Both the position numbers and the translations under genes were made by a program. A DNA stretch of 64,000 nucleotides from Niabella drilacis. GTDB taxonomy: Bacteria > Bacteroidota > Bacteroidia > Chitinophagales > Chitinophagaceae. The stretch is taken from the NCBI RefSeq assembly GCF_900101395.1, contig NZ_FMZO01000002.1, forward strand, positions 62,001 to 126,000, read 5' to 3'. Below the pieces are notes generated by a model, which saw only the letters and a list, made by a program, of their open reading frames with translations, had not been told where the DNA came from and made no database searches. This document shows, piece after piece, positions 3,231 through 59,830 of the stretch. Position 1 is the first letter of the stretch, and every line of letters begins with the position of its first letter.

Positions 3231-3330
3231 CTTATCTTTCCACAATTGTGGTTGAAGGTGGCACCTTCCCGCGCAATGCGGAGGTTGCCAAGACGTCATC
3301 GGGTCAAGTCCCTCGGTCTTTCTGGATAAG
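3231..3330 (-). promoter_or_regulatory. SAM-I (S-box) riboswitch aptamer
   Basis: The minus-strand sequence matches the S-box consensus in order. CTTATC (5' side of P1) is followed by AGAAAGACCGAGGGACTTGA, CCCGATGA, TTGGCAACCT, AAGGTGCCA and finally GAAAGATAAG (3' side of P1). P1 is formed by forward 3325-3330 with 3231-3236. SAM-I riboswitches bind S-adenosylmethionine and usually switch off methionine-biosynthesis genes when SAM is high. The terminator at 3158-3192 and promoter at 3351-3383 complete the device. Recognition is by eye but the match is strong. Confidence 0.95.
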
Positions 3331-44961: not shown

Positions 44962-47700
44962 ATGTATAGAAAAACCATACTGCTTTTTTTCTTATTTTTA
45001 TCGGGGATCTTGTTTTTAAATGCACAAACTTTGTTTGTAGATGCAACCAGGCCGGCTGACGGAGATGGCGCTTCATGGGCAACTGCTTATAAAAGCCTAT
45101 ACAATGCGCTGAATGCGGCAAACGCAAATACTGCTATACAGGAAATCCGGGTGGCGGGTGGCGCAACGGGGGCTTCCTACAGTCCGCCTTCCGGCAATGT
45201 CAATCATACTTTTTTGATTTCGAGAGGCGGATTAAAACTAACCGGGGGGTTTGCTGCGGGCGGATCGGCTTCTCCTGTACCCGGGCAAACCTCGGTACTG
45301 GCAGGCGCCGGGTCTCTCTATCATATAATGGTCATTGCCGGGTTACCCGCCAATGCAGGAGCGGTAGAGATCAGCGGCTTTACCTTTCGGGCCGGAAGAG
45401 CCGATGGAAGCGCCAATTTTAGTTACAATGGCGTATCTGTTCCCAATAATTCGGGCGGCGGCATTGCTATTTCCGGGAATGCCAACCTGGAAAAAATTAT
45501 TTTCCGCAATTGTGAAATTGCTGCGAATTACGCTGGCAATACCGGCGCCGGGGTGTACATCCAGGCCTCTGTGCCTCTATTTATGAACTGTGTTTTTTGG
45601 GGCAATTACGCCGATTACGGTGGGGCAGCTTTTAACTACGCTAACGCACATACCCGCTATATTAACTGTACCATTTCGGGCAACCACGATAATCACGGCG
45701 GTGGGGGTATGCGCAATTCAAATTCGGATCCGGTTATTGCCAATACCATTATTTATGGTAACGATGGTGGCATTGCCAATAACGATGGTGCTGCGCCTGT
45801 TATTTCCACCTCGTTGGTGCAGGGGCTTACTTCAACCAGCAACGGCAACCTGAACGGAAATACTACGAATCCATTATTTGAATTACCCCTGGCCATGCCC
45901 ATTAGCACTGCGCCTGGTGAAGAAACTCATGTTGATTACCGTCTGAAGCTGAAAAGCCCCTGTATAAACAAGGCTGCAACTACCCCTTACACTATATATG
46001 GGGGCGACCCGGGCAGCGACCGTGATTTCTGGGGCAGCCCCAGGTTAATATCTGAAACAATAGATATAGGCGCTGCAGAAACATTTGCTGTGTCGGCAAA
46101 CGGTATCATGTATGTAAAGAAGGGCAGTATGGGCGCAGGCGACAGTTGGGCTAACGCCATGGGTGAGCTGGCAGATGCAGTAAGAATTTCCCAAACAAAT
46201 ACGGAAATTAAACAAATTTGGGTGGCTGCGGGAACCTACAAACCTATGTATAGTTATGAAGATGACAATACCGGTGTTGATAAAGGATCCGAAAATGCAT
46301 TCCTAATTGTACGGGGCGTGAAGATATATGGAGGCTTTGCCGGGGGAGAAAGCAGTATTGGCGCAAGAAACTGGAAAGTAAATGAAACCATACTAAGTGG
46401 CGATCTTGACAATAGCAATACATTTTCCAATGGAGATGCTAATCACCTGGTGGTAAGGGTAGGTAGTACGCAAAATGCCATTCTCGATGGATTTACGATT
46501 AAAGGGGCCTATAACACAGGAGTAGAAAATGAAGTATATAAAACAGTAAATGGCAACAAATACATATGGGATGGAACTGGCGGGGCTATCATGGTACACA
46601 TGGGTAGCATGACAGTTAATAATTGTATTATAAAAGAAAATTACGGTAATCAAGGCGGAGCAATCGGCATGTATTGGAACGGCACTGGGGGAGATTTCAG
46701 GACTATTTTTCAAAATTGTACAATTACCAAGAATATAGCGAAGGCAGCGGGGGCCATTTACACCTACGGCACTTATGCCAGTTTCATCAATTGCGCCATT
46801 ACAGATAACGATGCTGTCAGCGGTATTAATGGTATTGAAGCCGCATATGGGAGTTTGTATTTTTTAAATTCAACACTTGCCAATAACGGCGAATCATTTT
46901 TCTATACAGAAGAAGGAGTTGGTGCGCCACAACATGCATTTAGAAACACCATTTTTTGGGATTACCTGATTGTGAACCATAGCTATGCTGCCAATTTCTA
47001 CAATTGCCTTATCAAACAAATCAGCGAAATAGTGGTGGAGGTTGAGAATGTGGATTCCTACGGTCTGAAAGAATGGGATGTTTTCGTGAATTATGCCGCG
47101 GGCAATTATACGCTCAAAACCGGTAGCCCCGCTATTAATGCGGGCGGCAACAGCTACTTTGCCGATTTTGCCAATTCAAAAGATTTGGCCGGAAACCCTC
47201 GTGTTTTTAACAGCACTATTGATTTAGGCGCTTACGAATACCAGGGTGCAGAGGCGCTACCTGTTACGCTTAACTCGTTATCGGCCCTGATCAAAAACGG
47301 GCAACTAATGGTAAACTGGACCACCGAAACCGAAACCAACAATGACCACTTTTTAATACAGGTTTCTGTTGACGGTAACAACTGGAAAACCGTGGAAACC
47401 GTACAGAGCAAGGCCCCGGGCGGTAACAGCAATACCGGACTGAACTATAGTAACGCGATCCCATTAACGGGACTAAGTCTTGGTGCGGGATTTTTACTGT
47501 TGGGTGCAATGGCCGGCCGCCGCCGTTATGGATATGTTCTTGCAATAGCCGTGGTTGCCATGAGTGTGCTGGCCTACTCCTGCAGCAGGCAGGATATCTT
47601 CAAAAATATAGAAAATGGTAAGTTGTTCCTACGCATTGTACAGGTAGATAAAGATGGTACAGAAAAAGTATCAAAAGTAATACAGGTGGTGCGGGAGTAG
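44962..47700 (+). CDS. Secreted beta-helix protein with interrupted C-terminal FN3-like/membrane-hairpin module (copy 1)
   Basis: A 912-residue protein with a signal peptide (residues 1-22, ending LFLNAQ). Two tandem right-handed beta-helix modules of the choice-of-anchor Q type follow; the second begins near IMYVKKGSMGAGDSWANAMG, and each ends in a motif like RVFNSTIDLGAYEYQ. The C-terminal part has LPVTLNSLSALIKNGQLMVN and NNDHFLIQVSVDGNNWKTVE, the fibronectin-like domain common before T9SS sorting tails. Instead of a sorting tail there are two membrane helices (about 835-852 and 856-873) with RRR between them and a lipobox-like YSCSRQ (Cys874). A final 39-residue segment, with LFLRIVQVDKDGTEKVSKVI, resembles the missing last strands. 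The ATG at 44962 is chosen over an upstream TTG because the signal peptide starts there. Ligand unknown. Confidence 0.85.
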   Translation: MYRKTILLFFLFLSGILFLNAQTLFVDATRPADGDGASWATAYKSLYNALNAANANTAIQEIRVAGGATGASYSPPSGNVNHTFLISRGGLKLTGGFAAGGSASPVPGQTSVLAGAGSLYHIMVIAGLPANAGAVEISGFTFRAGRADGSANFSYNGVSVPNNSGGGIAISGNANLEKIIFRNCEIAANYAGNTGAGVYIQASVPLFMNCVFWGNYADYGGAAFNYANAHTRYINCTISGNHDNHGGGGMRNSNSDPVIANTIIYGNDGGIANNDGAAPVISTSLVQGLTSTSNGNLNGNTTNPLFELPLAMPISTAPGEETHVDYRLKLKSPCINKAATTPYTIYGGDPGSDRDFWGSPRLISETIDIGAAETFAVSANGIMYVKKGSMGAGDSWANAMGELADAVRISQTNTEIKQIWVAAGTYKPMYSYEDDNTGVDKGSENAFLIVRGVKIYGGFAGGESSIGARNWKVNETILSGDLDNSNTFSNGDANHLVVRVGSTQNAILDGFTIKGAYNTGVENEVYKTVNGNKYIWDGTGGAIMVHMGSMTVNNCIIKENYGNQGGAIGMYWNGTGGDFRTIFQNCTITKNIAKAAGAIYTYGTYASFINCAITDNDAVSGINGIEAAYGSLYFLNSTLANNGESFFYTEEGVGAPQHAFRNTIFWDYLIVNHSYAANFYNCLIKQISEIVVEVENVDSYGLKEWDVFVNYAAGNYTLKTGSPAINAGGNSYFADFANSKDLAGNPRVFNSTIDLGAYEYQGAEALPVTLNSLSALIKNGQLMVNWTTETETNNDHFLIQVSVDGNNWKTVETVQSKAPGGNSNTGLNYSNAIPLTGLSLGAGFLLLGAMAGRRRYGYVLAIAVVAMSVLAYSCSRQDIFKNIENGKLFLRIVQVDKDGTEKVSKVIQVVRE

Positions 47701-47904
47701 GGCTGAAAGTAGTTGAATGATGGCTTTTCAATGAATATTGCATATTGAACATTGCCTATTGAATATTCTGCTGCTCTGTATAAAATAGCCAACAGTTGAC
47801 ATACTCAATAATCAATTTTCACCCACCAATGTCGGGAGCCTTAAAAACAGTCATAGCTGATATAGCGATTTTCCCTTAATTTCAATAAATAAAACAGAAA
47901 CCTC

Positions 47905-48888
47905 ATGGGACTATTTGACTTTATTAAGAACGAATTTATTGAAGTTATTGAATGGGTGGATACTTCTGCGAACACCCTGGTATGGAAATTTCAGGATAAA
48001 GGGAACAATATTAAGAATGGCGCAAAGCTAACGGTAAGGGAAAGCCAGGTGGTGGTGCTGATGAATGAAGGCGAGTTCGGAGATATATATCAGCCGGGAT
48101 TGCATACCCTCTCTACCAGCAACATGCCCATTACCACCACGTTAAAGTCCTGGAAATATGGGTTTGAGTCGCCGTTCAAAGTTGATATTTACTTTGTTAA
48201 TACCCGTCAGTTTACGGATCTTAAATGGGGCACTTCCGGTCCTGTATTGATCCGCGATGCGGAGCTGGGACAGGTGCGGCTGAAGGCATTTGGTAATTTT
48301 GCGATCCGTATTGCAGATGCCAGGAAATTCATTACCGAATTTGCCGGTACCAATCCTTTTGTGCGTGCAGAAGGAGTGGAGGAAGTTTTACAGGGGATCC
48401 TTTCCAGCCGTTTTGCCGAAGTACTGGCCAAGGCAAAGATCTCGATACTGGAGCTGGCGGCCAATTACCAGGTGCTGGGCGAGCAGTTAAAACCGGAGTT
48501 CCAGAAAGAGCTCGATAGCTACGGGCTCTCACTGGAGAAGTTCTTTATTGAGAATATTTCACTTCCGGAAGAAGTGGAGAAGATCCTCGACAAGAAGACC
48601 GAACTGAACATTCTCAAAGGCAACCTGAATGAGTTTAACCAGATGCAGGGTGGTATAGCACTGGAAAATCTTTCGAATAACGATGCGGCCGGCAATATGG
48701 GCGGCGTGGGTGCAGGCGTGGTGCTCACCAACCTCATGACCCAGGCAACACAGCCGCAACAACCTGCTGCAGAAAATAAAACAAACCTGATGGATGTTTT
48801 AAAGCAGCTTGGAGAGCTGAAAGCGCAGGGGATCATCACCGAGGAAGAGTTTGCCGAAAAGAAAAAAGACATCCTGGCCCGGCTGTAA
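47905..48888 (+). CDS. SPFH-domain protein with C-terminal SHOCT motif (YdjI-like)
   Basis: A 327-residue protein starting MGLFDFIKNEFIEVIEWVDT. The central SPFH/band-7 domain (about 40-235) resembles the virion-core-like SPFH proteins: KLTVRESQVVVLMNEGEFGD, then YQPGLHTLSTSNMP. A Gln-rich linker and a short helical SHOCT motif (DVLKQLGELKAQGIITEEEF) end the protein. No membrane segment. The zinc-ribbon membrane protein 12 bases downstream is its usual neighbour: in Bacillus, YdjI (SPFH) and YdjG (zinc ribbon, membrane) work together with a PspA protein in membrane stress. The analogous role here is inference; no pspA gene is present. Confidence 0.85.
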   Translation: MGLFDFIKNEFIEVIEWVDTSANTLVWKFQDKGNNIKNGAKLTVRESQVVVLMNEGEFGDIYQPGLHTLSTSNMPITTTLKSWKYGFESPFKVDIYFVNTRQFTDLKWGTSGPVLIRDAELGQVRLKAFGNFAIRIADARKFITEFAGTNPFVRAEGVEEVLQGILSSRFAEVLAKAKISILELAANYQVLGEQLKPEFQKELDSYGLSLEKFFIENISLPEEVEKILDKKTELNILKGNLNEFNQMQGGIALENLSNNDAAGNMGGVGAGVVLTNLMTQATQPQQPAAENKTNLMDVLKQLGELKAQGIITEEEFAEKKKDILARL

Positions 48889-48900
48889 TCAAAATATTTT

Positions 48901-49977
48901 ATGCAGGCGTTTGAAGAATATCCCTGTCCCAACTGCGGATCGGAGCTGAACTATGATGCAGCCAAAAGCAGTTTAAAATGTCTCCATTGTGGTGCGGTGT
49001 TCGCCATCCAGAAAAGTACGGAGGTGATCGAGGAGCGCAATATCAGCATTTTTAAGGATGCGGAAACGATCCCTATTGCCCCCATACAGGTTGCGGTATA
49101 CCGGTGCAGCAAGTGTGGGCAGGAAACACAGGAAGCAGGGGATGTGGCTTTTTTTGAATGCCGCAATTGTGGCAATAATGTGGTCAACCCTGCGGCCTAT
49201 ACAACCCGCAGCATCAGCCCCGCCGGCATCATCCCGTTTAAAATATCAAAGCAGGATGCGCTGGACCGGTTTGCGCAGTGGATCGGCAAAGGCTTCTGGA
49301 ATGACAGCGATCTGAAAAAACTTTCGCTGACCGATAAACTGGAAGGGCATTATGTGCCGTTCTGGACCTTCGATTGCCAGACCGGTAATCAATGGAGCGG
49401 TTACTCCGGCAGGTATTATTACGAAACCGTGCGCCGCAGGAATGCCAGCGGCGAGGAAGTAACGGAACAGGTGCGGCATACCAACTGGACCTGGCGTACC
49501 GGATCTTTTGAACTTTTTTTTGACGATGTGCTGGTCTGCGGTAACAAGGCCATCCCCCAGGACCGGATCAATGATATATATCCCTATCTCTTAAATGATG
49601 TGGTGGTCTTTAATGATGAATACCTGCTTGGCTGGAATGCCCGGGCATATGATAAGGACCTGTCTGAAACGTACCGGCTGGCGCGGACGATCATGGACCG
49701 GAAAATAGAACAGGAGGCCATTTCCCGGCTGGCAGAGGATACCTATCGCGATCTGCGGGTGCAAACAGACTATTCCGGGGAAACCTTTAAACAGATCATT
49801 CTGCCGGTTTGGTTGTGCCAGTACCTGTTCAAGGGGAAAACATACCAGTTCATCATCAACGGGCAGACCGGGGTCATCAGCGGTACCAAACCATTGTCGG
49901 TATCCAAAATAGCAACAGCTGTTGTGATTGCCGTTCTGATCATTGCAGCGATATATTTTTTCACAAGATCAGGATGA
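48901..49977 (+). CDS. Zinc-ribbon protein with C-terminal membrane helix (YdjG-like)
   Basis: A 358-residue protein with two zinc ribbons near the N-terminus: CPNCG with CLHCG (residues 9-35) and CSKCG with CRNCG (about 69-97). A central domain of unknown fold follows (TDKLEGHYVPFWTFDCQTGN), with one membrane helix at about 333-354 and a short charged tail. It resembles TFIIB-type zinc-ribbon membrane proteins that accompany SPFH proteins. The ATG lies 12 bases after the SPFH stop, so the two form an operon. Topology suggests a cytoplasmic zinc-ribbon head anchored by its tail. Confidence 0.8.
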   Translation: MQAFEEYPCPNCGSELNYDAAKSSLKCLHCGAVFAIQKSTEVIEERNISIFKDAETIPIAPIQVAVYRCSKCGQETQEAGDVAFFECRNCGNNVVNPAAYTTRSISPAGIIPFKISKQDALDRFAQWIGKGFWNDSDLKKLSLTDKLEGHYVPFWTFDCQTGNQWSGYSGRYYYETVRRRNASGEEVTEQVRHTNWTWRTGSFELFFDDVLVCGNKAIPQDRINDIYPYLLNDVVVFNDEYLLGWNARAYDKDLSETYRLARTIMDRKIEQEAISRLAEDTYRDLRVQTDYSGETFKQIILPVWLCQYLFKGKTYQFIINGQTGVISGTKPLSVSKIATAVVIAVLIIAAIYFFTRSG

Positions 49978-50044
49978 CGGTCAGGGCATCAATGCACCCG
50001 ATAATTTTTGCCATGCAAAATAATAAATAGGTATCTTCACCTGC

Positions 50045-51769
50045 GTGCAACCAACAATAACGTTTAAGTTTCTCTTTTGTTTTCTCTTCTTTAACCTGCT
50101 TCCTTTTACGCACTGCGGGGCGCAGGATCTTGAAACCTTGCTGGCTCCTCTTTCTCCGCCTGAGCGCGTTCGCTATGTGAGCGGGTATATAGAAGTGAAA
50201 AATATTGTCAATACGCCCCGGTTCGATTCCTTCCTTCACCAGGTGAAGGTATTTGCGGAGAAAAAAAAGGACGCATTATTGCTGGACGAGGCCAATTATT
50301 TAATAAATGGCATCCCCATTTTTAAAGAACAGGACAGCGAAACCAGAATAGCGCTGATCAAAAGATCACAGGAAGCTTACCAGCGGAAGAATGACCGGCT
50401 TCATGTCGGAGATTGCCTGGTGGCAATAGGTCAGATACAGTTCGCCAATGAGCAATACGCAGCCGCTTTTGAAAACCTGCTGGAGGCCGCGGAAATTTTC
50501 AAAAAATTAGGATATGCACAGGTACCTAAAATAGGAAAGTACCTGCATGATTTTGCACTGGATTATTTCTTTTTCCGGGAATATGACAAAGCGATCCTGT
50601 ATATGAAGGAATCTGTAAAGTTGCCCGGGTACAACGATAATCTTGATATACAGCGCTACAATACACTGGGCATGTCGTACCTGAAGCTGGATCGGCTGGA
50701 CAGCGCCTACCGGTACCTAGATACGGCCTATCAAAAAGCCAGCGGGTATAAAGACAGTTTCTGGATAGGCCTGAGCGCCGGCAATATAGGCGAAGTGCTG
50801 TATGCAAAGGGCGAATACCAGCGCGCGCTGCGCTATTTTTTGGAAGATTACCGGTTCAATATCCACAGCGATTTCCCGGACGTGCAGCAAAATATCTGTG
50901 TGAACCTGGCTAAAAATTATCTCCGGCTGAATATGTTGGATAAAGCCCACTATTACCTGCAGCTGACCGGGCAGTTCCTCCCCAAATCAAAGACCACAAC
51001 TTTTGGGAACCAGCAATTGCTGGAGCTGGCCAAACTGAATTATTATGATCTGGGTTACCGGTATTACCTGGCATGCAACGATTATAAAACAGCGTTGTTA
51101 TATGCGGACAGCCTGCACCAGGCCGAAAGGATCCGGGATCAGAAATACAATACACTGCAGGTAGAAATGGCATCGGGCAAGCTGGCCTTGCTGCAGTCAA
51201 AAGTGGCGCTTCAAAAAAAAGAGCTGGCACATGAGCAACAGCGCCGGGTGCGGAATATGATCATCGTTTCATTGGTGGTCCTCTTCATCCTATCGCTGCT
51301 TATTTTCCGGAACCGGCAGGTGCTGCTGCGGGCCCGGCTTGAAAGAGCAGCGCATCACCTGAAACTATCCGAACTAAAACTGAATGAGTTTGCTGCACAG
51401 ATCCAGGAGAAATCGAAACTGGTAGCCGACATGAAAGAAAAGCTGGAGCAGCACCCGGGTACGGACAACAGCCTGTTGCAGCAATTGCACCAGGCTACGA
51501 TCCTGACAGACAGCGACTGGATGCGGTTCAAAACACTTTTTGAGCAGGTGCATTCCGGTTTCCTGCTTCGGCTTCGGGAAAAGTACCCCGAAATTTCTCC
51601 CGCCGAAATCCGCTATCTTACGCTGGCCAAGCTCCGTTTTTCCACCAGGGAAATGGCGGCGGCACTGGGGGTTTCTACCCAGAGTATCCGGACCAACTGG
51701 TATCGCATCCGGAAAAAACTGGACCTGCCCGAATCGCTGAATGTGGATGAACTGGTGGCCAATGTTTAA
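50045..51769 (+). CDS. TPR-repeat membrane regulator with C-terminal helix-turn-helix
   Basis: A 574-residue protein with a signal peptide (about 1-27), a TPR-rich periplasmic part (about 100-390), one membrane helix (about 400-420, MIIVSLVVLFILSLLIF), a coiled coil (RARLERAAHHLKLSELKLNE) and a LuxR/GerE-like helix-turn-helix near the end (STREMAAALGVSTQSIRTNW). This is a Bacteroidota pattern for one-component transmembrane regulators that sense envelope ligands through TPRs. The start is GTG at 50045: the nearest upstream ATG in this region stops quickly in another frame. It directly precedes the second beta-helix gene, which it might regulate. Confidence 0.8.
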   Translation: MQPTITFKFLFCFLFFNLLPFTHCGAQDLETLLAPLSPPERVRYVSGYIEVKNIVNTPRFDSFLHQVKVFAEKKKDALLLDEANYLINGIPIFKEQDSETRIALIKRSQEAYQRKNDRLHVGDCLVAIGQIQFANEQYAAAFENLLEAAEIFKKLGYAQVPKIGKYLHDFALDYFFFREYDKAILYMKESVKLPGYNDNLDIQRYNTLGMSYLKLDRLDSAYRYLDTAYQKASGYKDSFWIGLSAGNIGEVLYAKGEYQRALRYFLEDYRFNIHSDFPDVQQNICVNLAKNYLRLNMLDKAHYYLQLTGQFLPKSKTTTFGNQQLLELAKLNYYDLGYRYYLACNDYKTALLYADSLHQAERIRDQKYNTLQVEMASGKLALLQSKVALQKKELAHEQQRRVRNMIIVSLVVLFILSLLIFRNRQVLLRARLERAAHHLKLSELKLNEFAAQIQEKSKLVADMKEKLEQHPGTDNSLLQQLHQATILTDSDWMRFKTLFEQVHSGFLLRLREKYPEISPAEIRYLTLAKLRFSTREMAAALGVSTQSIRTNWYRIRKKLDLPESLNVDELVANV

Positions 51770-51920
51770 ACACCCTGTGCCGGCGATGGGTTGTTTTGTA
51801 GTTGTAATGTGTTCATTATCAGTTTTATTTTTTGTTGTGACGTTTTTGTGACGCTCTGTTTAGGGCATTAATGAGCTGCACGGGTTTATTTTGAAGGGCA
51901 ACAAAACAACTCCCTCTCAA

Positions 51921-54842
51921 ATGAACAATACATCTATTTTGCGCAAATGCTTCCTTGCTTCGTTGATCCTGTTCCGTTTTTTTGCAGCAGCTCAAACACC
52001 CGATGCCAATGGCATCGTGTATGTGAAAAAGAATGCCGGGGGCAATGGCAGCGGTTGGGCATCGCCCACTTCGGAACTGGCCGATGCGCTGAAAGCTGCA
52101 AAGACCAACACAAATATTAAAGAGATATGGGTGGCCAAAGGCACTTACAAGCCCCTCTACCGGGCCAATAATCTGAGTGGAGCAAACCCGGCCGACCGCG
52201 ATAATTCCTTTGTACTGGTTCAAAATGTAAAAGTTTACGGCGGCTTTGATCCGGATAACCAGATGGGTACTTTCGCCACCCGGAACCCCCGCATCGCAGT
52301 TACCACGCTGAGCGGAGATATTGATGGCAACAATAACCTTAGCAACAATGCTTACCATGTTGTTATTGTCGCGGGCGCGGCCGGTACGGCCGAATTGAGC
52401 GGGTTTACCATTACCGGCGGAAATGCCAGCGGTACTTCCCTGTTAACTGTTAACGGGGAAGGCATCACCCGGTACGAGGGAGGGGGAATGAATATAAAAA
52501 ACAGTGCACCTAAAATTACCGGGCTCATTATTGATGGCAATAGCGGCAATCAGTGTGGCGGATTGTATACCTACAATTCGGCCGCAGACATAAGCGAGCT
52601 GATCGTTCGTAACAACACGGCTACTTCCTCTTATGGCGGCGGAATAGCCATCGAAAGCGGACAGACCGCAACCACAAGCGTACGCATTACCAACGCACTG
52701 ATCATCACCAACAGTGCTACAGCCGCATCGGGCAGGGGAGGCGGCATTTATACTGCCAATTACGGCGCGGCCGTACCACAACTGATCAATGTAACAATCA
52801 GCAATAACGCCGCCGCCGCCGGAGGCGGTGTGTACGTTTTGGCCGGTTATGCAAGCATTTACAACAGCATTATATGGGCCAATACTGCAGGTGGCAGTGC
52901 AACCACGCCCGGCGCGGATATACAGGGAGCCAATACGGTACTTAAGAACAGCATAGTGCAGGTATATGGTTCAGCAGATCCCACAAATCTGGTGGGCGCA
53001 AACCCTTTGTTCGCCAACCCGGCAAACGGGGATTACCGGTTATTAAGCACTTCTCCTGCTGTTAATAAAGGCAGCAATGACCTGTTTACCGGTCTGAATG
53101 CCGGCACCAAAGACCTTGCCGGTTATGTAAGAGTATTTGATTATGCCGGCTCCGGTGTAATCGATATGGGAGCCTATGAGAGTCCCTATACACCCGGCGC
53201 CGAGGTTATTATATATGTAAAACCGGTTGCTACCGGTAATGGGGATGGTACCAGCTGGGATGACGCCACCAGTGATCTGCAGGGAGCCATCAATACCATT
53301 GGTGTGCAGAAGGTATTTGTGGCTGTAGGCAATTACGATGTGCCATCGCCCAACAGCTTCATCATGAAGAACGGTGTCGCCATTTATGGCGGCTTCGATC
53401 CCGGGCGCAATATAAAAACACTGGCAAACAACAGGATCATGATGGACACTTCAGGTGTTACGGGCTCCATACTTAACGGCAAACGGGAACGCCCGGTGAT
53501 CTGGAATGTATTTACAGACGCTACCAAAATGAACAGCACGGCGGTATTGGATGGTTTTACGATCACAGGCGGCTACAATAATATCGAAGGGCTTTATGAC
53601 GGCGGTGGCGGCATGCGCAACAGCTATGCCTCGCCAACCATCAGTAATGTGGTTTTCAGAGCCAATGCAGCCTACAATGGAGGCGGAATGCTGAACTTCT
53701 TCTCTGGACCGGTGCTCACCAATACGGCCTTTGTAAAAGATTCGGCTAAGAACCAGGGTGGGGGTATCCATAATTTCTCCTCCGCAACTACCGTTATGAA
53801 TGGTGCAATAATAACCGGTAATTATTCGGCGCAAAACGGTGCCGGCATCACCAATTATGCCACCGGATCGCAAACATTTACGAACCTCTTGATCACAAAA
53901 AATACAGCGGCTAACGCTGGCGGCGGAGTAGAAAATATCAATTCAGCCTCCACATTTTTGAATACGCTTGTAGCCGACAATACACAGGGGGTCGTTGCAT
54001 CTGGCGCCAATACCCCAACCTTCATCAATTGCACCATAGCCCGTAATTACACGCCTTTTGGAGAAACGTCTTTTTATTCGGTTGACGGAAATATACACTT
54101 TATCAACTCAATTGTTTTTGGCACATTCAACGGTAAAAGTAAATATACCGCCCAATACTCATTCATCGAAGGCGTTGACAATACGGATGATGGCAATATA
54201 AGCGCGGCGGGCATCGGACAAGCGCAGATGTTCAACAGCCCGGGCCTGGGCGATTATACCTTGAGGTCCGCAGCGCCGGTCATTGATAAAGGAAATAACG
54301 CGTTGTTTGACGGTCTGGACCAGGATACCAAAGACCTTGCCGGCAATGCACGGCTTACCGGGGCTGTAATTGATATGGGGGCCTATGAATATGATGCAGC
54401 GCTTCCTGTGTTGTTTGGAAGATTCAGTGCGGTTTTAAAGAATGGTCAGCTGATCGTAAACTGGCGTACGGAAAGCGAAACCGGCAACGATCATTTTCTC
54501 ATACAGGTTTCCGCCGATGGTAAGAACTGGAAAACCGTTCAAACGGTAACGAGCAAGGCCCCGGGTGGTAACAGCAATACCGGGCTGGACTACAGCAACG
54601 CCATCCCTTTAACGGGACTAAGTCTTGGTGTAGGATTTTTACTATTAGGTGCAATGACCGGCCGCCGCCGCAGGTATATTCCAGCAATAGCCATGTTTGG
54701 AATAAGCATGCTGGCCTTCTCCTGCAGTAAGCAGGATATTTTCAAACATATTGATAACGGCAGGCTGTTCGTACGCATCGTGCAGGTGGATAAAAACGGT
54801 ACGGAGCGGGTATCGAAAGTGATACAGGCGGTGCGGGAATAA
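51921..54842 (+). CDS. Secreted beta-helix protein with interrupted C-terminal FN3-like/membrane-hairpin module (copy 2)
   Basis: A 973-residue paralogue of the products at 44962 and 54961. After the signal peptide (about 1-25, ending FFAAAQ) come two tandem beta-helix modules. Each opens with a YVK-type motif (IVYVKKNAGGNGSGWASPTS; IIYVKPVATGNGDGTSWDDA) and closes with an IDMGAYE motif. The C-terminal module is the same as in copy 1: LPVLFGRFSAVLKNGQLIVN, NDHFLIQVSADGKNWKTVQT, two membrane helices with RRR(R) between them, then Cys935 in AFSCSKQD and a 39-residue tail with RLFVRIVQVDKNGTERVSKV. The ATG at 51921 is chosen over an upstream TTG. Its last 276 bases are almost identical to those of copy 3. 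Confidence 0.85.
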   Translation: MNNTSILRKCFLASLILFRFFAAAQTPDANGIVYVKKNAGGNGSGWASPTSELADALKAAKTNTNIKEIWVAKGTYKPLYRANNLSGANPADRDNSFVLVQNVKVYGGFDPDNQMGTFATRNPRIAVTTLSGDIDGNNNLSNNAYHVVIVAGAAGTAELSGFTITGGNASGTSLLTVNGEGITRYEGGGMNIKNSAPKITGLIIDGNSGNQCGGLYTYNSAADISELIVRNNTATSSYGGGIAIESGQTATTSVRITNALIITNSATAASGRGGGIYTANYGAAVPQLINVTISNNAAAAGGGVYVLAGYASIYNSIIWANTAGGSATTPGADIQGANTVLKNSIVQVYGSADPTNLVGANPLFANPANGDYRLLSTSPAVNKGSNDLFTGLNAGTKDLAGYVRVFDYAGSGVIDMGAYESPYTPGAEVIIYVKPVATGNGDGTSWDDATSDLQGAINTIGVQKVFVAVGNYDVPSPNSFIMKNGVAIYGGFDPGRNIKTLANNRIMMDTSGVTGSILNGKRERPVIWNVFTDATKMNSTAVLDGFTITGGYNNIEGLYDGGGGMRNSYASPTISNVVFRANAAYNGGGMLNFFSGPVLTNTAFVKDSAKNQGGGIHNFSSATTVMNGAIITGNYSAQNGAGITNYATGSQTFTNLLITKNTAANAGGGVENINSASTFLNTLVADNTQGVVASGANTPTFINCTIARNYTPFGETSFYSVDGNIHFINSIVFGTFNGKSKYTAQYSFIEGVDNTDDGNISAAGIGQAQMFNSPGLGDYTLRSAAPVIDKGNNALFDGLDQDTKDLAGNARLTGAVIDMGAYEYDAALPVLFGRFSAVLKNGQLIVNWRTESETGNDHFLIQVSADGKNWKTVQTVTSKAPGGNSNTGLDYSNAIPLTGLSLGVGFLLLGAMTGRRRRYIPAIAMFGISMLAFSCSKQDIFKHIDNGRLFVRIVQVDKNGTERVSKVIQAVRE

Positions 54843-54960
54843 TATGCTAATGGGTTTAAAGTTACAGGGTTGGGATGCATTCAGACATCAGACATCCAAA
54901 ATCGGACATCTTTAAGCGGCTTCGGACTTTTCGACCCGGATCAACAATTAAATATCAGAC

Positions 54961-57774
54961 ATGAAGATTTTTTTTGTGTGCAAAAAAAGCATTTTTGTAT
55001 GCCTGCTATTGGTTAGCAGCTTATTGCAGGCTCAAACCCCCGATGGTAACGGCATTATTTATGTAAAAGCCGATGGAACAGGCAACGGCAGCAGCTGGGG
55101 CAATGCTACTTCCAGCTTACAGGGGGCTATTAATGCCGCCGGCGTGCAAAAAGTATTTGTAGCTGTGGGAACTTATACTGTTTCATCTGCCGATGCTTCT
55201 TTCAAAATGAAAAATAATGTGGAGATCTACGGCGGTTTTGTTCCCGCAAATAATGTAACTGATTGGAGCACCCGTATTTTGCCGAACAGGAACCCTGTTA
55301 CTGACTGGCCGTATACGGGTTCTGTTCTGAATGGCCTTAATCTACAAACATTCGAAAATTATCCGGTTATTCAAAATACCAGCGATTTGGGTTTGACCCC
55401 TTCGGCGGTATTAGACGGGTTTACCATAGCTGCCGGTGTGAATCTGGGTTATGGCGGGGGTATTTCCAATCAGAATGCATCGCCAACACTCAGGAATTTG
55501 CTGATAACCGGTAATATGGCGGCCAGGGGCGGAGGCATTTACAATTCAAATTCTTCGCCTGTTATTACCGATGTTATTATAAACAATTGCGTAGCTTTTA
55601 CTAATGGTGCTAATACCGGGCTGGGTGGTGCCGTTTATAATATAAATGCTTCGCCGGTTTTTATCAACGTACTCGTTGTAGGAAATCAAACCGATGTTAA
55701 TAACGGAGGCGCCGGGATATACAATACCGGAACAGGAACTACGCAATTTATCAATACCACTATCGATAATAATATCGCCGGAGTAAATGGGGGTGCTCCT
55801 AATGCTATGACGATTAATTCAGGAACGGTCAGCTTTAGCAACTCAATTGTCTATGGGGGTATTACAGGAACGTACAATGCCCGGTATTCCATAATACAGG
55901 GCAATACCGATTTTACCAATGGAAATATTAATGCTTCAGGTTTTACAGCAGGCGATATTTTTGTTGGTCCAATTTTGGGGTACACTATAGATGTCGGAAA
56001 TTATCAACTAAGATCTGTTGCCCCGGCTATTGATGCCGGCAGCAATTCATTGTTCCCTGATTTAACTGTAACTGCGCTGGATTTAGCAGGAAATTCCAGG
56101 GTGAAGAATGGTAATAACCCCGGCGTGATAGACATGGGGGCTTATGAAAGTCAGTATGTACCTGTTGAGCCAACAGCAGGAGTTGTTTATGTAAAACCCA
56201 TCGCAAGCGGAAACGGCAGCGGCAGCGGCTGGGATGATGCGACCTCCGATTTGCATACGGCCATTCATACCGCAGGCGTTGCAAAGGTTTTTGTAGCTGC
56301 GGGGCATTACTATGTAGGGAGTGCCTCCTTTATTATGAAAAACAATGTGGCTGTTTACGGAGGTTTTGATCCGGCGCATAATATTAAAACATTGAGCGAT
56401 CATCGCATTATGCCCGATCCGGCCCATCCGGCACAGGGGTCGGTGCTGGACGGGCAGGGGGCAAGACCTGTTATCTGGAACGTTTTCAACGCAGCAACAG
56501 CAATGAACAATACTGCTGTTCTGGACGGATTTACCATCACCAATGGGAAATCGGGAGAGAATGGAACCGGCGGGGGAATATATAACGAATACGCATCGCC
56601 CACACTCGTCAACCTCGTTATAAGCAATAACAAAGCCAATTACGGCGGAGGTACCTACAACAAAAATTCTTCACCGAAGATGGAGCATATCAGGATTACC
56701 GGTAATTCGGCGCAGTGGGATGGCGGCGGCATCTACAACAAGGCATCGGCTCCTTCTATGATCAATGTTGCCATCATGAACAATAAGGCGAACTATGGGG
56801 GAGGTGTTTTTAATCAAACTGCCCCGGCGCCCGGTATGGTGAATGTGCTGATAACGGGGAACAGCTCTAACAATGACGCCGGCGGCATGTATAATGATGA
56901 TCAGGCAATTCCTGTTTTAACCAATACCACCATCGCGGGAAACAATGCTGCACTTCAGGGTAAAGCAATATACAACCGCAACGCATCTGTTGCATTGTAT
57001 AACTCCATTGTTTATGGAAGCATTGCGGGCGCGGCGTACACGGCGCAGTTTTCTTTAATAGAAGGCAGCAACAGCACCGCCGATGGAAATATAGACGCCA
57101 CAGCGGTTACTCCTGGCGATATTTTTGTTAATCCCTTGGCGGGAGACTATACGTTAAAAGCGGGTAGCAAGGCCATTAACGGAGGTAGCAATCAACACTA
57201 CTGGAATATCATTAACGGAGGCGCTCCGCTTCCTCCTTTGGGAGATGCTGCGTGGGGAACTGACCTTGCCGGCAACCCCAGGCTGGCCGGATCTGCGATT
57301 GATCCGGGTGCTTTCGAGTACCGGGATGGTGCATTGCCGGTGTCCTTTGGCGCGTTCAGTGCCCTGGTAAAAGACGGCCGGCTGCTGGTAAGCTGGACTA
57401 CGGTGAGTGAAGCGAATAACGATCATTTCCTGGTACAGGTTTCCCCGGACGGGAGGAACTGGAAGACGGTGCAAACCGTACAGAGCAGGGCCGCCGGAGG
57501 TAACAGCAATACCGGGCTGGACTACAGCAACGCCATCCCTTTAACGGGACTAAGTCTTGGCGCAGGGTTTTTACTATTGGGTGCAATGACCGGCCGCCGC
57601 CGCAGGTATATTCCAGCAATAGCCATGTTTGGAATAAGCATGCTGGCCTTCTCCTGCAGTAAGCAGGATATTTTCAAACATATCGATAACGGCAGGCTGT
57701 TCGTACGCATCGTGCAGGTGGATAAAAACGGTACGGAACGGGTATCGAAAGTAATACAGGCGGTGAACGGGTAA
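54961..57774 (+). CDS. Secreted beta-helix protein with interrupted C-terminal FN3-like/membrane-hairpin module (copy 3)
   Basis: A 937-residue paralogue. The signal peptide (about 1-25, SSLLQAQ) is followed by two beta-helix modules: the first opens IIYVKADGTGNGSSWGNATS, the second VVYVKPIASGNGSGSGWDDA. The second module is especially close to that of copy 2 (IMKNNVAVYGGFDPAHNIKT against VAIYGGFDPGRNIKT). The C-terminal part repeats the FN3-like segment (LPVSFGAFSALVKDGRLLVS), the membrane hairpin, Cys899 in AFSCSKQD and the 39-residue tail, ending VNG where copy 2 ends VRE. It lies 118 bases after copy 2 and is convergent with the M43 protease gene. Confidence 0.85.
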   Translation: MKIFFVCKKSIFVCLLLVSSLLQAQTPDGNGIIYVKADGTGNGSSWGNATSSLQGAINAAGVQKVFVAVGTYTVSSADASFKMKNNVEIYGGFVPANNVTDWSTRILPNRNPVTDWPYTGSVLNGLNLQTFENYPVIQNTSDLGLTPSAVLDGFTIAAGVNLGYGGGISNQNASPTLRNLLITGNMAARGGGIYNSNSSPVITDVIINNCVAFTNGANTGLGGAVYNINASPVFINVLVVGNQTDVNNGGAGIYNTGTGTTQFINTTIDNNIAGVNGGAPNAMTINSGTVSFSNSIVYGGITGTYNARYSIIQGNTDFTNGNINASGFTAGDIFVGPILGYTIDVGNYQLRSVAPAIDAGSNSLFPDLTVTALDLAGNSRVKNGNNPGVIDMGAYESQYVPVEPTAGVVYVKPIASGNGSGSGWDDATSDLHTAIHTAGVAKVFVAAGHYYVGSASFIMKNNVAVYGGFDPAHNIKTLSDHRIMPDPAHPAQGSVLDGQGARPVIWNVFNAATAMNNTAVLDGFTITNGKSGENGTGGGIYNEYASPTLVNLVISNNKANYGGGTYNKNSSPKMEHIRITGNSAQWDGGGIYNKASAPSMINVAIMNNKANYGGGVFNQTAPAPGMVNVLITGNSSNNDAGGMYNDDQAIPVLTNTTIAGNNAALQGKAIYNRNASVALYNSIVYGSIAGAAYTAQFSLIEGSNSTADGNIDATAVTPGDIFVNPLAGDYTLKAGSKAINGGSNQHYWNIINGGAPLPPLGDAAWGTDLAGNPRLAGSAIDPGAFEYRDGALPVSFGAFSALVKDGRLLVSWTTVSEANNDHFLVQVSPDGRNWKTVQTVQSRAAGGNSNTGLDYSNAIPLTGLSLGAGFLLLGAMTGRRRRYIPAIAMFGISMLAFSCSKQDIFKHIDNGRLFVRIVQVDKNGTERVSKVIQAVNG

Positions 57775-57841
57775 GATCTCAGTATTCAGATCATCAGCCT
57801 TTAAAGGATGGATATTATTATACACTGCGGTCGCATTGCCG

Positions 57842-59830
57842 CTACCCGTTTACTATTTTTATCGCCTTGATGTATTGTTGTATGCCATTCCTGTCAACCC
57901 CCGTAACGCGGATGAACCGGATCGTTTCTTCCTGCCGGGGTTCTGTTGCGGGTTGTTTGTTACAGGTAATAAACAGACAAATGACCAGGGGCGCTATCAA
58001 CCATCGTCTTTTTTTATAACGTCCAAAAGACCGCAGCGAAAATAAAAGCGTCAGCAAGCCCAGTCCCATAGCCAGTTTCCCGTTACGCTCAAAGGTAACG
58101 CTGTATTGTAAAAGGCTGTTAGAAAAACCATCTTTTGCCTTGCTGTCTACCCGGGTAAGTGGTATGAAGTTTTGGCTGTCGGCGGAGGCTTCAATAATAA
58201 AATGGCCGATGTTGGCTTCATGGGTGGTGCTCCATTGCACTTTCAGGGTATTATTCTTCAGCAATGCGCTGATTTCCTGCATATCTAAAGGGGCCGCCTC
58301 TTCAATGCTTACCCAGAAATCTTCGGTTTGTCCATATAGGAGCTGGCTGCCCGCAGTGAAATCGGGGTTGGCGAGAAGGTCGGCCATGACGCGCATCCGC
58401 AGCGGGACGCTCTTTACGGCGGTGCTGAGCTGATCCGGCGGGATGGTTGCTGTATGCGTATAGGCGGCGACATCTGACTGGCTGTTTAATACCAGTTCAT
58501 CATCATTGAACTGTCCGTCATTATTAAAGTCGATCCAGGCTTTACAGGCCTGGGGGTTGGTTTGGGTGGTAACGCTGAGGACCTGGCCTGGGGCTACATG
58601 GAGTGCTTCCCCGATAGTACAGCTGTTGTCCGAATAAGACCGGTAGCCATCCTGGTTATAGCCGTACGATACATAAGACATGTTGCCCAGGGTTACGTTA
58701 CAGGGACCTGCATTGCTCGTGTTCGTGGATCTCAGGATGTTGACCGGTACCTGCACAGCGGCTTTTACGGGTATGGAGGGCGGCGGAATGGTTGCCTGTG
58801 ACGTTAACAGTCCGCTTCTTATTGCCAGGAGCGCTGCCATCATCCGGTCGCTTTGTCCCTGCGTGAACCGGTTCAGACAGGATCCATAACCCATAAGATT
58901 GTTTTGAATGGTGCCATAGGCCGTCTTCGTACAGAGGTTGATGTCGGTTGATGCAGGACAGGGGCCCGAGAGGTCTTTTACGGGGTCGGTATCGCATACC
59001 CGGTCCCCGTCTGTGCTGCAATTTGTATTTTCAGGGCAGCCGGCATCACTACCTTCAAACGTGTGGAACAGGCCAAAGGCATGTCCCATTTCATGGGTCA
59101 GTGTGGGGGTCATATCGTTCATATGCCGGCTCAGGATAACCATGCCTTCGGCGGGGTAAATATGATAGTCGTTCCCTGCATAAGGTAAACTGGCATATCC
59201 GGCAATAGAGCTGGAGCCGGGCGTAACGGCGTTGATCTTCCATACTACCCAGATATTATAGTATTGTTTTTCCGGCCAGGTGCTTAAGTTTTTTACAGCG
59301 GTTTCCGCTGCTCCCGGTGAACCGGACCCGGGATAGGACATCCCGCTGGCATCATAGTCATTCAGCGTACCTCCGTTCAGCCGTTCAATGCCGGTAGTAC
59401 TGCCGCAACCGGGGCTCCTTTTTGCCAGCGCAAATTTTATAGGAGTGCCGGCTCCTTCGTTGCCTGACCCCGGAGCTGCCGAGAAATTGGCATTTAGGCG
59501 GTCGATGGCTGCCTGTATCTGTGTATCGGTCGGGTTAGATGGGGCGCCGGGGTTGGCGTCCCCGGATCTGTAAATGATATGGACCACTACCGGTATTTCA
59601 TAAAGAGGGGCCGATGATATGCTCATGTTCCGCATTGCTTTGCGAAATGTGGCCAGCTCTGTGACTTTTTGCCGGATCCTGCTTTCCGCAAGCGCAGCTC
59701 TTTCCGCGTACCCGTTGTCCTTTTTTAAACGCTGCTGGATACCATCAAAACCGCAGATAATGTTTTGTGCATTGACTGTTGTACCGGAGAGTATCAGGTA
59801 CGCAAAAAGGATGAATCGTTTGGGGCTCAT
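57842..59830 (-). CDS. M43-family (pappalysin-like) secreted metalloprotease with the same C-terminal hairpin module
   Basis: A 662-residue protein with a signal peptide (1-21, ending TTVNAQ). The catalytic domain has LTHEMGHAFGLFHTFEG (zinc His246, His250, His256; Glu247) and a likely Met-turn at NNLMGYGSC, the M43 pattern. A GEVED-type domain follows (ACKAWIDFNNDGQFNDDELV). The C-terminus has the FN3-like part (DMQEISALLKNNTLKVQWST), a hairpin (about 586-599 and 610-622) with YKKRR between the helices, Cys623 in FITCNKQP and a 40-residue tail with RFIRVTGVDRNGIQQYIKAI. The passenger is unrelated to the beta-helix proteins, so the C-terminal module is shared by different kinds of exported protein. 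Substrate unknown. Confidence 0.9.
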   Translation of the reverse strand: MSPKRFILFAYLILSGTTVNAQNIICGFDGIQQRLKKDNGYAERAALAESRIRQKVTELATFRKAMRNMSISSAPLYEIPVVVHIIYRSGDANPGAPSNPTDTQIQAAIDRLNANFSAAPGSGNEGAGTPIKFALAKRSPGCGSTTGIERLNGGTLNDYDASGMSYPGSGSPGAAETAVKNLSTWPEKQYYNIWVVWKINAVTPGSSSIAGYASLPYAGNDYHIYPAEGMVILSRHMNDMTPTLTHEMGHAFGLFHTFEGSDAGCPENTNCSTDGDRVCDTDPVKDLSGPCPASTDINLCTKTAYGTIQNNLMGYGSCLNRFTQGQSDRMMAALLAIRSGLLTSQATIPPPSIPVKAAVQVPVNILRSTNTSNAGPCNVTLGNMSYVSYGYNQDGYRSYSDNSCTIGEALHVAPGQVLSVTTQTNPQACKAWIDFNNDGQFNDDELVLNSQSDVAAYTHTATIPPDQLSTAVKSVPLRMRVMADLLANPDFTAGSQLLYGQTEDFWVSIEEAAPLDMQEISALLKNNTLKVQWSTTHEANIGHFIIEASADSQNFIPLTRVDSKAKDGFSNSLLQYSVTFERNGKLAMGLGLLTLLFSLRSFGRYKKRRWLIAPLVICLFITCNKQPATEPRQEETIRFIRVTGVDRNGIQQYIKAIKIVNG

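Follow-up and report, generated by a model that had tools for sequence, protein, structure and literature searches.

A stretch of 64,000 nucleotides of the Niabella drilacis genome (assembly GCF_900101395.1, contig NZ_FMZO01000002.1, positions 62,001 to 126,000 of the forward strand), referred to here as the window, encodes four exported proteins that share a C-terminal module, in which an FN3-like domain is split by two hydrophobic helices and the second helix looks like a lipoprotein signal peptide. The four genes, delimited from the open reading frame list, a domain scan and a reading of their signal peptides, lie at 44962-47700, 51921-54842 and 54961-57774 of the forward strand and at 57842-59830 of the reverse strand, and begin with ATG at 44962, 51921, 54961 and 59830, respectively. 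By eye, all four N-termini read as Sec signal peptides ending in AQ, an ending that agrees with the Q-rule of Bacteroidetes (PMC5837995). The initial annotation had placed the four reading frames at these ends and had proposed that a module, and not membership of one family, unites them. Both points hold: the last 148 or so residues of each protein align throughout as a single module, and the domain scan finds a choice-of-anchor-Q domain in the three forward-strand passengers and Peptidase_M43 with GEVED, marking an M43 metalloprotease, in the fourth, so that the module is common to unrelated passengers. Among eight further copies of the same genome that were scanned, six have a Pfam match before the module, namely beta-helix-type repeats (two), NHL, RCC1-like repeats (two, one under the cut-off) and DUF285, and two have none.

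Layout and predicted fold of the module

From its N-terminal side, the tail of about 148 residues consists of strands A-E of the FN3-like domain, a hydrophobic helix, a loop rich in Arg and Lys, a second hydrophobic helix, strands F-G and the stop. In the first protein, strands A-E, placed by alignment to the modelled tail of the second, correspond to 47251-47454; helix 1, the basic loop and helix 2, together a putative internal signal of lipoprotein type, to 47455-47580; and the predicted lipopeptide, which would run from the lipobox Cys through strands F-G, to 47581-47697, the last two segments being placed by alignment of the tails. The corresponding segments of the second protein, where alignment and an AlphaFold2 model were both used, lie at 54396-54599, 54600-54722 (loop RRRR) and 54723-54839, and those of the third, placed by alignment, at 57328-57531, 57532-57654 (again RRRR) and 57655-57771. 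The fourth module, likewise aligned, is on the reverse strand, with A-E at 58091-58294, helices and KKRR loop at 57965-58090 and the predicted lipopeptide at 57845-57964. Modules 2 and 3 (54396-54839 and 57328-57771) share 128 of 180 nucleotides in their first 60 residues but 234 of 240 in the 80 residues that follow, from the end of strand E to strand G, and this near-identity makes their anchor part look like the product of a recent gene conversion.

The conserved features were read from an alignment of 49 fused tails, a selection of the copies read that includes the window's own four, to which L001-L004 correspond, and leaves out the near-duplicates L023, L026, L028 and L065, as well as L030 and L033, which are divergent and have the Cys, L070/L071, which have it too in a frame that ends early, and L072, whose frame ends after 44 amino acids. 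Mean column identity is 45%, with the consensus LPV...W.T..E.NN..F.I..S.DG...........SkA..GNS...L.Y for strands A-E and (F)xRIxQVDKDGxxxYSKxI for strands F-G. The Cys at the end of helix 2 is invariant (49/49) and is directly preceded by Ser, Ala, Gly or Thr in every row; by eye, it is also found in all 30 copies read together from the N. drilacis genome, the window's four included, and in one further copy. Helix 2 is about as hydrophobic as helix 1, the loop between them holds at least two Lys or Arg in each row, and the nine residues ending at the last basic residue of the loop contain on average 3.7 Lys or Arg and 0.02 Asp or Glu. Counting the Cys, 38-42 residues remain to the end of the protein. 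A small residue and an invariant Cys that follow a basic n-region and a hydrophobic core, as in all 49 tails, are what a lipobox consists of, and in this make-up helix 2 looks like a lipoprotein signal peptide. The initial annotation had described the insert as a membrane hairpin with a basic loop; both helices and the loop are indeed present in all four window proteins, but the Cys that ends helix 2, which had gone unnoted, changes the nature of this hairpin, and with its lipoprotein-signal features the insert is not simply one.

AlphaFold2, given the 49 rows, modelled the window tail with a mean predicted local distance difference test score (pLDDT) of 80.7; by ten-residue blocks, the scores were 87-97 for strands A-E, 49-63 for the insert and 89-95 for strands F-G. 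In VIA-align, single solved FN3 domains align with this model across both halves, namely 3mpc_A (88/96 residues, Z 9.0, root-mean-square deviation 2.6, model residues 2-148) and 8fn9_D, a single uninterrupted FN3 (92/100 residues, Z 8.7). Foldseek alone gave weak matches (best E 1.0e-3), and a sequence search of the PDB with the module returned nothing significant. These models bear out, in prediction, the earlier proposal that the strands on either side of the insert belong to one FN3-like sandwich, A-E and F-G together forming a predicted seven-strand sandwich in one domain. A tail that fails to complete the fold, or that is a separate known domain, was looked for, and the prediction gives neither.

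Lipoprotein features in one gene or two

In five genomes of two other genera the two halves of the module are adjacent genes on the same strand (G024, G202 and G323 in genus g9; G091 and G245 in genus g76). The first gene encodes a secreted protein that stops right after strand E and that is, by eye, beta-helix-like in g9 and hydrolase-like in g76; the second encodes a lipoprotein-like protein of 51-64 amino acids, with a signal peptide of its own that aligns to helix 2 and a mature part that corresponds to strands F-G. Helix 1 is absent. The gaps from stop to ATG measure 27, 26, 64, 100 and 3 nucleotides, and three of the five pairs lie in different reading frames and are therefore not one broken gene, which gives no support to an origin of the pairs in read-through or in a sequencing error. 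One other candidate, L245, turned out to be an unrelated lipoprotein. Modelled through its stop as one chain, the two-gene form reached a pLDDT of 78.5, and VIA-align matched it to 6zzc_D (86/90 residues, Z 9.5, root-mean-square deviation 2.6, model residues 7-129). No other single finding speaks as strongly for helix 2 being a lipoprotein signal as the two-gene form does. It would also explain helix 1, since a fusion of the two genes would need an extra helix that returns the chain to the cytoplasm before the second signal.

The start of the predicted lipopeptide resembles that of other lipoproteins of the genome. With the Cys as +1, residue +3 is Lys in 45, Arg in three and Asp in one of the 49 tails and is thus basic in 48/49, as compared with 21 of 22 SusD-type lipoproteins of N. 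drilacis (73 SusD-like genes were matched, of which 30 were given as loci and 22 have a readable mature N-terminus). The module thus has a lipobox-like Cys in common with the outer-membrane or surface lipoproteins of Bacteroidota, and a basic +3 residue in common with the SusD proteins of this genome; unlike in such lipoproteins, the signal of the Niabella module is internal, and the mature lipopeptide would amount to only two strands of a domain to which the passenger contributes the rest. The mature SusD-type proteins themselves (L178-L207), which start C-x-K/R in those 21 cases, often continue with (F)LD, and they carry an acidic residue at +4 in 2/22 and at +5 in 0/22. Their C-x-K/R is possibly a surface export signal specific to the genus and unlike that of Capnocytophaga, which is C-X-K-(D/E)2-X (PMC5080379).

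Curators may already have modelled a tail of similar layout. The NCBIfam family NF058595 ('invert_tail', lipo-invert putative C-terminal anchoring domain), known here from its name and its matches, gives weak matches to the 49 tails (23 at E 0.1 or below, best 2.3e-4). Seven members shown singly score 13.8-19.0 bits, under the curated cut-off of 37; in these the match covers helix 1, loop, helix 2 and Cys, within positions 5-85 of a model of 113, and the Cys falls near position 72 as judged from the aligned ends. At E 1, NF058595 matched none of nine further fused tails scanned singly, and it matched none of the two-gene lipoproteins. The layout looks like that of the module, and the name suggests that curators suspect a C-terminal, lipoprotein-like anchor; what is added here is the split FN3 domain, the two-gene form and the link to a missing SprA, described below. 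In Pfam, the 49 tails match mainly F5/8 type C domains, weakly and through strands A-E (31 and 26 of the 49 tails; best E 3.1e-5; the one member shown lies under the cut-off), and the gene-2 lipoproteins have no Pfam match. A literature search found no paper on lipo-invert tails, internal lipoboxes, internal lipoprotein signal peptides or split FN3 lipoproteins.

Occurrence of the module and type IX secretion

The N. drilacis genome holds 33 matches to the module, 31 of them near-full-length, a recurrence far from chance. Among 196 genomes searched, N. drilacis included, 14 of the 16 other Niabella genomes have a best match of E 3.5e-48 or better, and the best match outside the genus is at E 2.5e-19. 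A named-genome search gave 37 loci, in which the strong full-length ones belong to Niabella species and which also include three contigs of metagenome-assembled genomes, two under the label Ferruginibacter and one under Chitinophagaceae. Among the matches listed for a draw of 395 genomes across the phylum, in which at most nine candidates per genome were scored, those that span the whole module come only from the two Niabella genomes, and all others listed stop at or before model position 74, that is, after strand E. By eye, none of the 28 non-Niabella loci of this draw has a hairpin: all run contiguously into a YYRLKQVD-like strand and, measured from where the domain starts, continue for 137 residues or more. 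Fused forms outside Niabella are found in G374, G466 and G333; a search of a plasmid collection led nowhere.

One tree, which took as controls 20 of the 28 contiguous loci of the phylum draw (the other eight failed the pattern and are contiguous by eye) and eight contiguous loci of the named-genome search, groups 48 of the 49 fused rows together (support 100/99) and the five two-gene rows in another group (95/98). The fused tail of L172 (2384-2848, reverse strand) in G333, a split FN3 with a lipobox that comes from another genus and retains the strand YRLKLVNLDG, is placed among the contiguous domains in this tree, with bootstrap not settled, long branches and 101 columns. In a topology test neither a single origin of all fused rows (p-AU, approximately unbiased test, 0.72) nor one of all split forms (p-AU 0.62) was rejected, and L172 may or may not be of independent origin.

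Locus L036 (G000:C39:1-14000) has five module matches within about 9 kb, at 3244, 4683, 6199, 9216 and 11290, three of them with near-identical tails (L021, L023 and L026). Frames that hold the Cys and strands F-G and lack a whole A-E half in frame with them occur in L031 (648-953, reverse strand), L165 (2279-2479), L167 (1751-2029, reverse strand), L168 (1735-2133) and L169 (2152-2376); they read as partial or decayed copies of the module, and so do the short Niabella frames that had resembled stand-alone lipoproteins.

Elsewhere, a contiguous FN3-like domain of the type LPV...YYRLKQVD precedes tails of the type IX secretion system (T9SS). Strand for strand this is the domain of the module but, unlike the Niabella version, it is unbroken between strands E and F and is followed by a further tail. 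SprA, the T9SS translocon (PMC10202324), was found over the cut-off of 200 bits in none of the 17 Niabella genomes, as opposed to 40 of 42 others (other T9SS components were not searched for), and seven Niabella genomes gave 16.7-19.3 bits over a short internal stretch only. For the T9SS tail family TIGR04183, each Niabella genome has 0-2 matches, the strongest at E 4.8e-7, and in 12 of the 17 genomes the low curated cut-off is passed; the other genomes have 7 to at least 81. At E 1 none of the four window proteins has a TIGR04183 match, the family is not among the 25 of 27 NCBIfam families listed for the 49 tails, and a single tail of the 49 has a weak match to Pfam Por_Secre_tail (E 0.041). 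With the protein ending so soon after the Cys, the earlier observation that no sorting tail follows the module stands, and a variant of the T9SS tail was rejected on the SprA and TIGR04183 counts. Thus, in a genus where no translocon was detected, a putative lipobox insert interrupts the FN3-like domain that elsewhere precedes a T9SS-type tail. The broader suggestion of the initial annotation, an anchoring, sorting or strand-complementation system outside the T9SS tail model, survives in that the tail is not of T9SS type and that the predicted FN3 fold is completed; it needs amending in that the insert is more than a membrane hairpin.

Modes of anchoring and their meaning

The features of the module suggest the following scheme. 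Sec would export the passenger until helix 1 stops transfer and leaves the Arg/Lys loop on the cytoplasmic side, whereupon helix 2 would insert in the way that lipoprotein signal peptides ordinarily do, which would place its Cys at the periplasmic face. Processing of this internal Cys by Lgt and LspA would then release a lipidated peptide of 38-42 residues with strands F and G, which would associate with strands A-E and complete the FN3 sandwich of the passenger. The passenger would thus be held at its C-terminal end by a lipid anchor through strand complementation, with no peptide bond; later steps would remove helix 1 from the passenger and deliver the complex to the outer membrane or cell surface. 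In the two-gene genera the same halves would be made as two proteins, and helix 1 would not be needed. We hold with moderate confidence that the module is a split FN3 domain with an embedded lipoprotein signal, from which LspA makes a lipidated F-G peptide that serves as a non-covalent C-terminal lipid anchor; the wider proposal, in which such non-covalent anchoring is a system with two encodings, a pair of adjacent genes or a single gene with an added helix that restores topology, we regard as evenly balanced.

The alternative that fares best, though in our view unlikely, is a plain hairpin anchor in the inner membrane, in which both helices stay in place, neither lipid nor cleavage is involved and the FN3 domain folds around the hairpin on the periplasmic side. 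The two hydrophobic helices with a basic loop between them in every aligned tail are what such an anchor would require, and the E-F loop of the predicted domain can hold the insert; it leaves unexplained, however, why the Cys is invariant, why a small residue precedes it and why Lys or Arg follows two positions later, and it does not account for a two-gene form in which the counterpart of helix 2 is an N-terminal lipoprotein signal and helix 1 is missing. Less probable still is a protein that is lipidated and uncleaved, Lgt modifying the internal Cys and LspA failing to cut, so that two helices and a lipid would anchor the protein. The sequence evidence for recognition by Lgt fits this case equally, and among the LspA matches no paralogue adapted to internal sites stood out, but the small residue before the Cys is kept in all 49 tails, and the two-gene form yields the F-G piece directly as a separate protein.

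GlyGly-CTERM proteins, which are served by rhombosortase, use a C-terminal helix and an Arg cluster for surface anchoring. The module likewise has a helix followed by such a cluster, as do MYXO-CTERM proteins with their myxosortase (PMC11980579); in these an invariant Cys, predicted to be lipidated, comes first, then the helix, and the protein ends with its Arg-rich region, whereas the Cys of the module follows its second helix and is itself followed by strands F-G. That helix 1 and the Arg cluster form a sorting signal of the GlyGly-CTERM, MYXO-CTERM or exosortase type, cut near the start of helix 1 by an intramembrane protease with the rest discarded, is very improbable: the layout and the PLTG of three window copies recall such tails, but PLTG, which the initial annotation had rightly noted in those three, is no motif of the module (4/49 aligned tails, the window trio and L052; 3/30 copies of the N. 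drilacis genome) and was rejected as a sorting motif, helix 2, the Cys and 37-41 more residues follow the loop in 49/49 tails where such signals end the protein, the most conserved residues of the second half (Cys, Lys/Arg, strands F-G) come after helix 1 and would serve no purpose in a discarded tail, and rhomboid numbers are ordinary (exosortases and CPBP proteases were not searched for).

Several points weigh against the scheme of a lipidated peptide that completes the passenger's own domain. LspA normally acts on N-terminal signals, and the signal of the fused form is internal, being N-terminal only in the two-gene form; lipidation and LspA cleavage of the module Cys are predicted from sequence features. 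Because cleavage would leave helix 1, the loop and helix 2 on the passenger, the passenger should be held in the inner membrane, and counts of rhomboid and LspA matches brought up no candidate protease for removing helix 1 (exosortases and CPBP proteases lay outside these counts). A dedicated rhomboid is unsupported, with 4-7 matches per Niabella genome as against 1-7 in others, as is a dedicated LspA, with no paralogue that tracks the module and one match in 11 of the 17 Niabella genomes. The passenger may therefore stay in the inner membrane in Niabella and be lipid-bound only in the two-gene form of the other genera. Both structure models were of one chain and were made from alignments of split tails, that of the two-gene form including contiguous relatives and fused ones as well. 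Rarity is a further point: a clear gene-2 match occurs in only 5 of the 379 genomes of the family, a count that would miss more divergent pairs of the two-gene form. At the start of the lipopeptide, the Lys at +3 matches that of the Capnocytophaga signal, and the acidic pair of that signal is not conserved in the module, which has an acidic residue at +4 in 6/49 tails, at +5 in 23/49 and at both in 1/49. The basic +3 residue is no proof of surface export, since 4 of 11 further lipoprotein candidates, taken from the window and the Niabella loci, have it too, at least one of the four resembling SusD. Finally, two of the 17 Niabella genomes, G008 and G016, have neither module nor SprA, and G024 has SprA together with the two-gene form, so that the module is neither a needed nor a strict replacement for type IX secretion.

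As for signal peptidase II itself, G008, G012 and G016 have an extra full-length match (a frame of 173-176 amino acids), two of these three genomes being without the module, and the LspA gene is in pieces in G003 and G013 and was not found in G014, an assembly that is 74% complete.

Donor-strand complementation, of which the type V pili of Bacteroidota are one case, finishes a beta-sandwich with a strand supplied by a second chain, and the precursors are lipoproteins. The lipidated F-G peptide proposed here would likewise complete a sandwich of another chain; in distinction to type V pili, one lipidated two-strand peptide would complete one module passenger, and nothing suggests polymerisation. 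In lipoprotein processing as it is known, a protein receives its lipid at the N-terminus. If the proposal is true, a lipidated fragment that finishes a beta-sandwich can supply an anchor at the other end, and internal sites, too, can be cut by signal peptidase II. With the two-gene pairs, strand pairing becomes directly testable, and a split FN3 domain with a lipid handle could serve as a tagging tool. For the organisms themselves, such anchoring would act on up to dozens of proteins per Niabella genome and would show what form FN3-bearing exported proteins take in a genus of Chitinophagaceae where the type IX translocon is not found.

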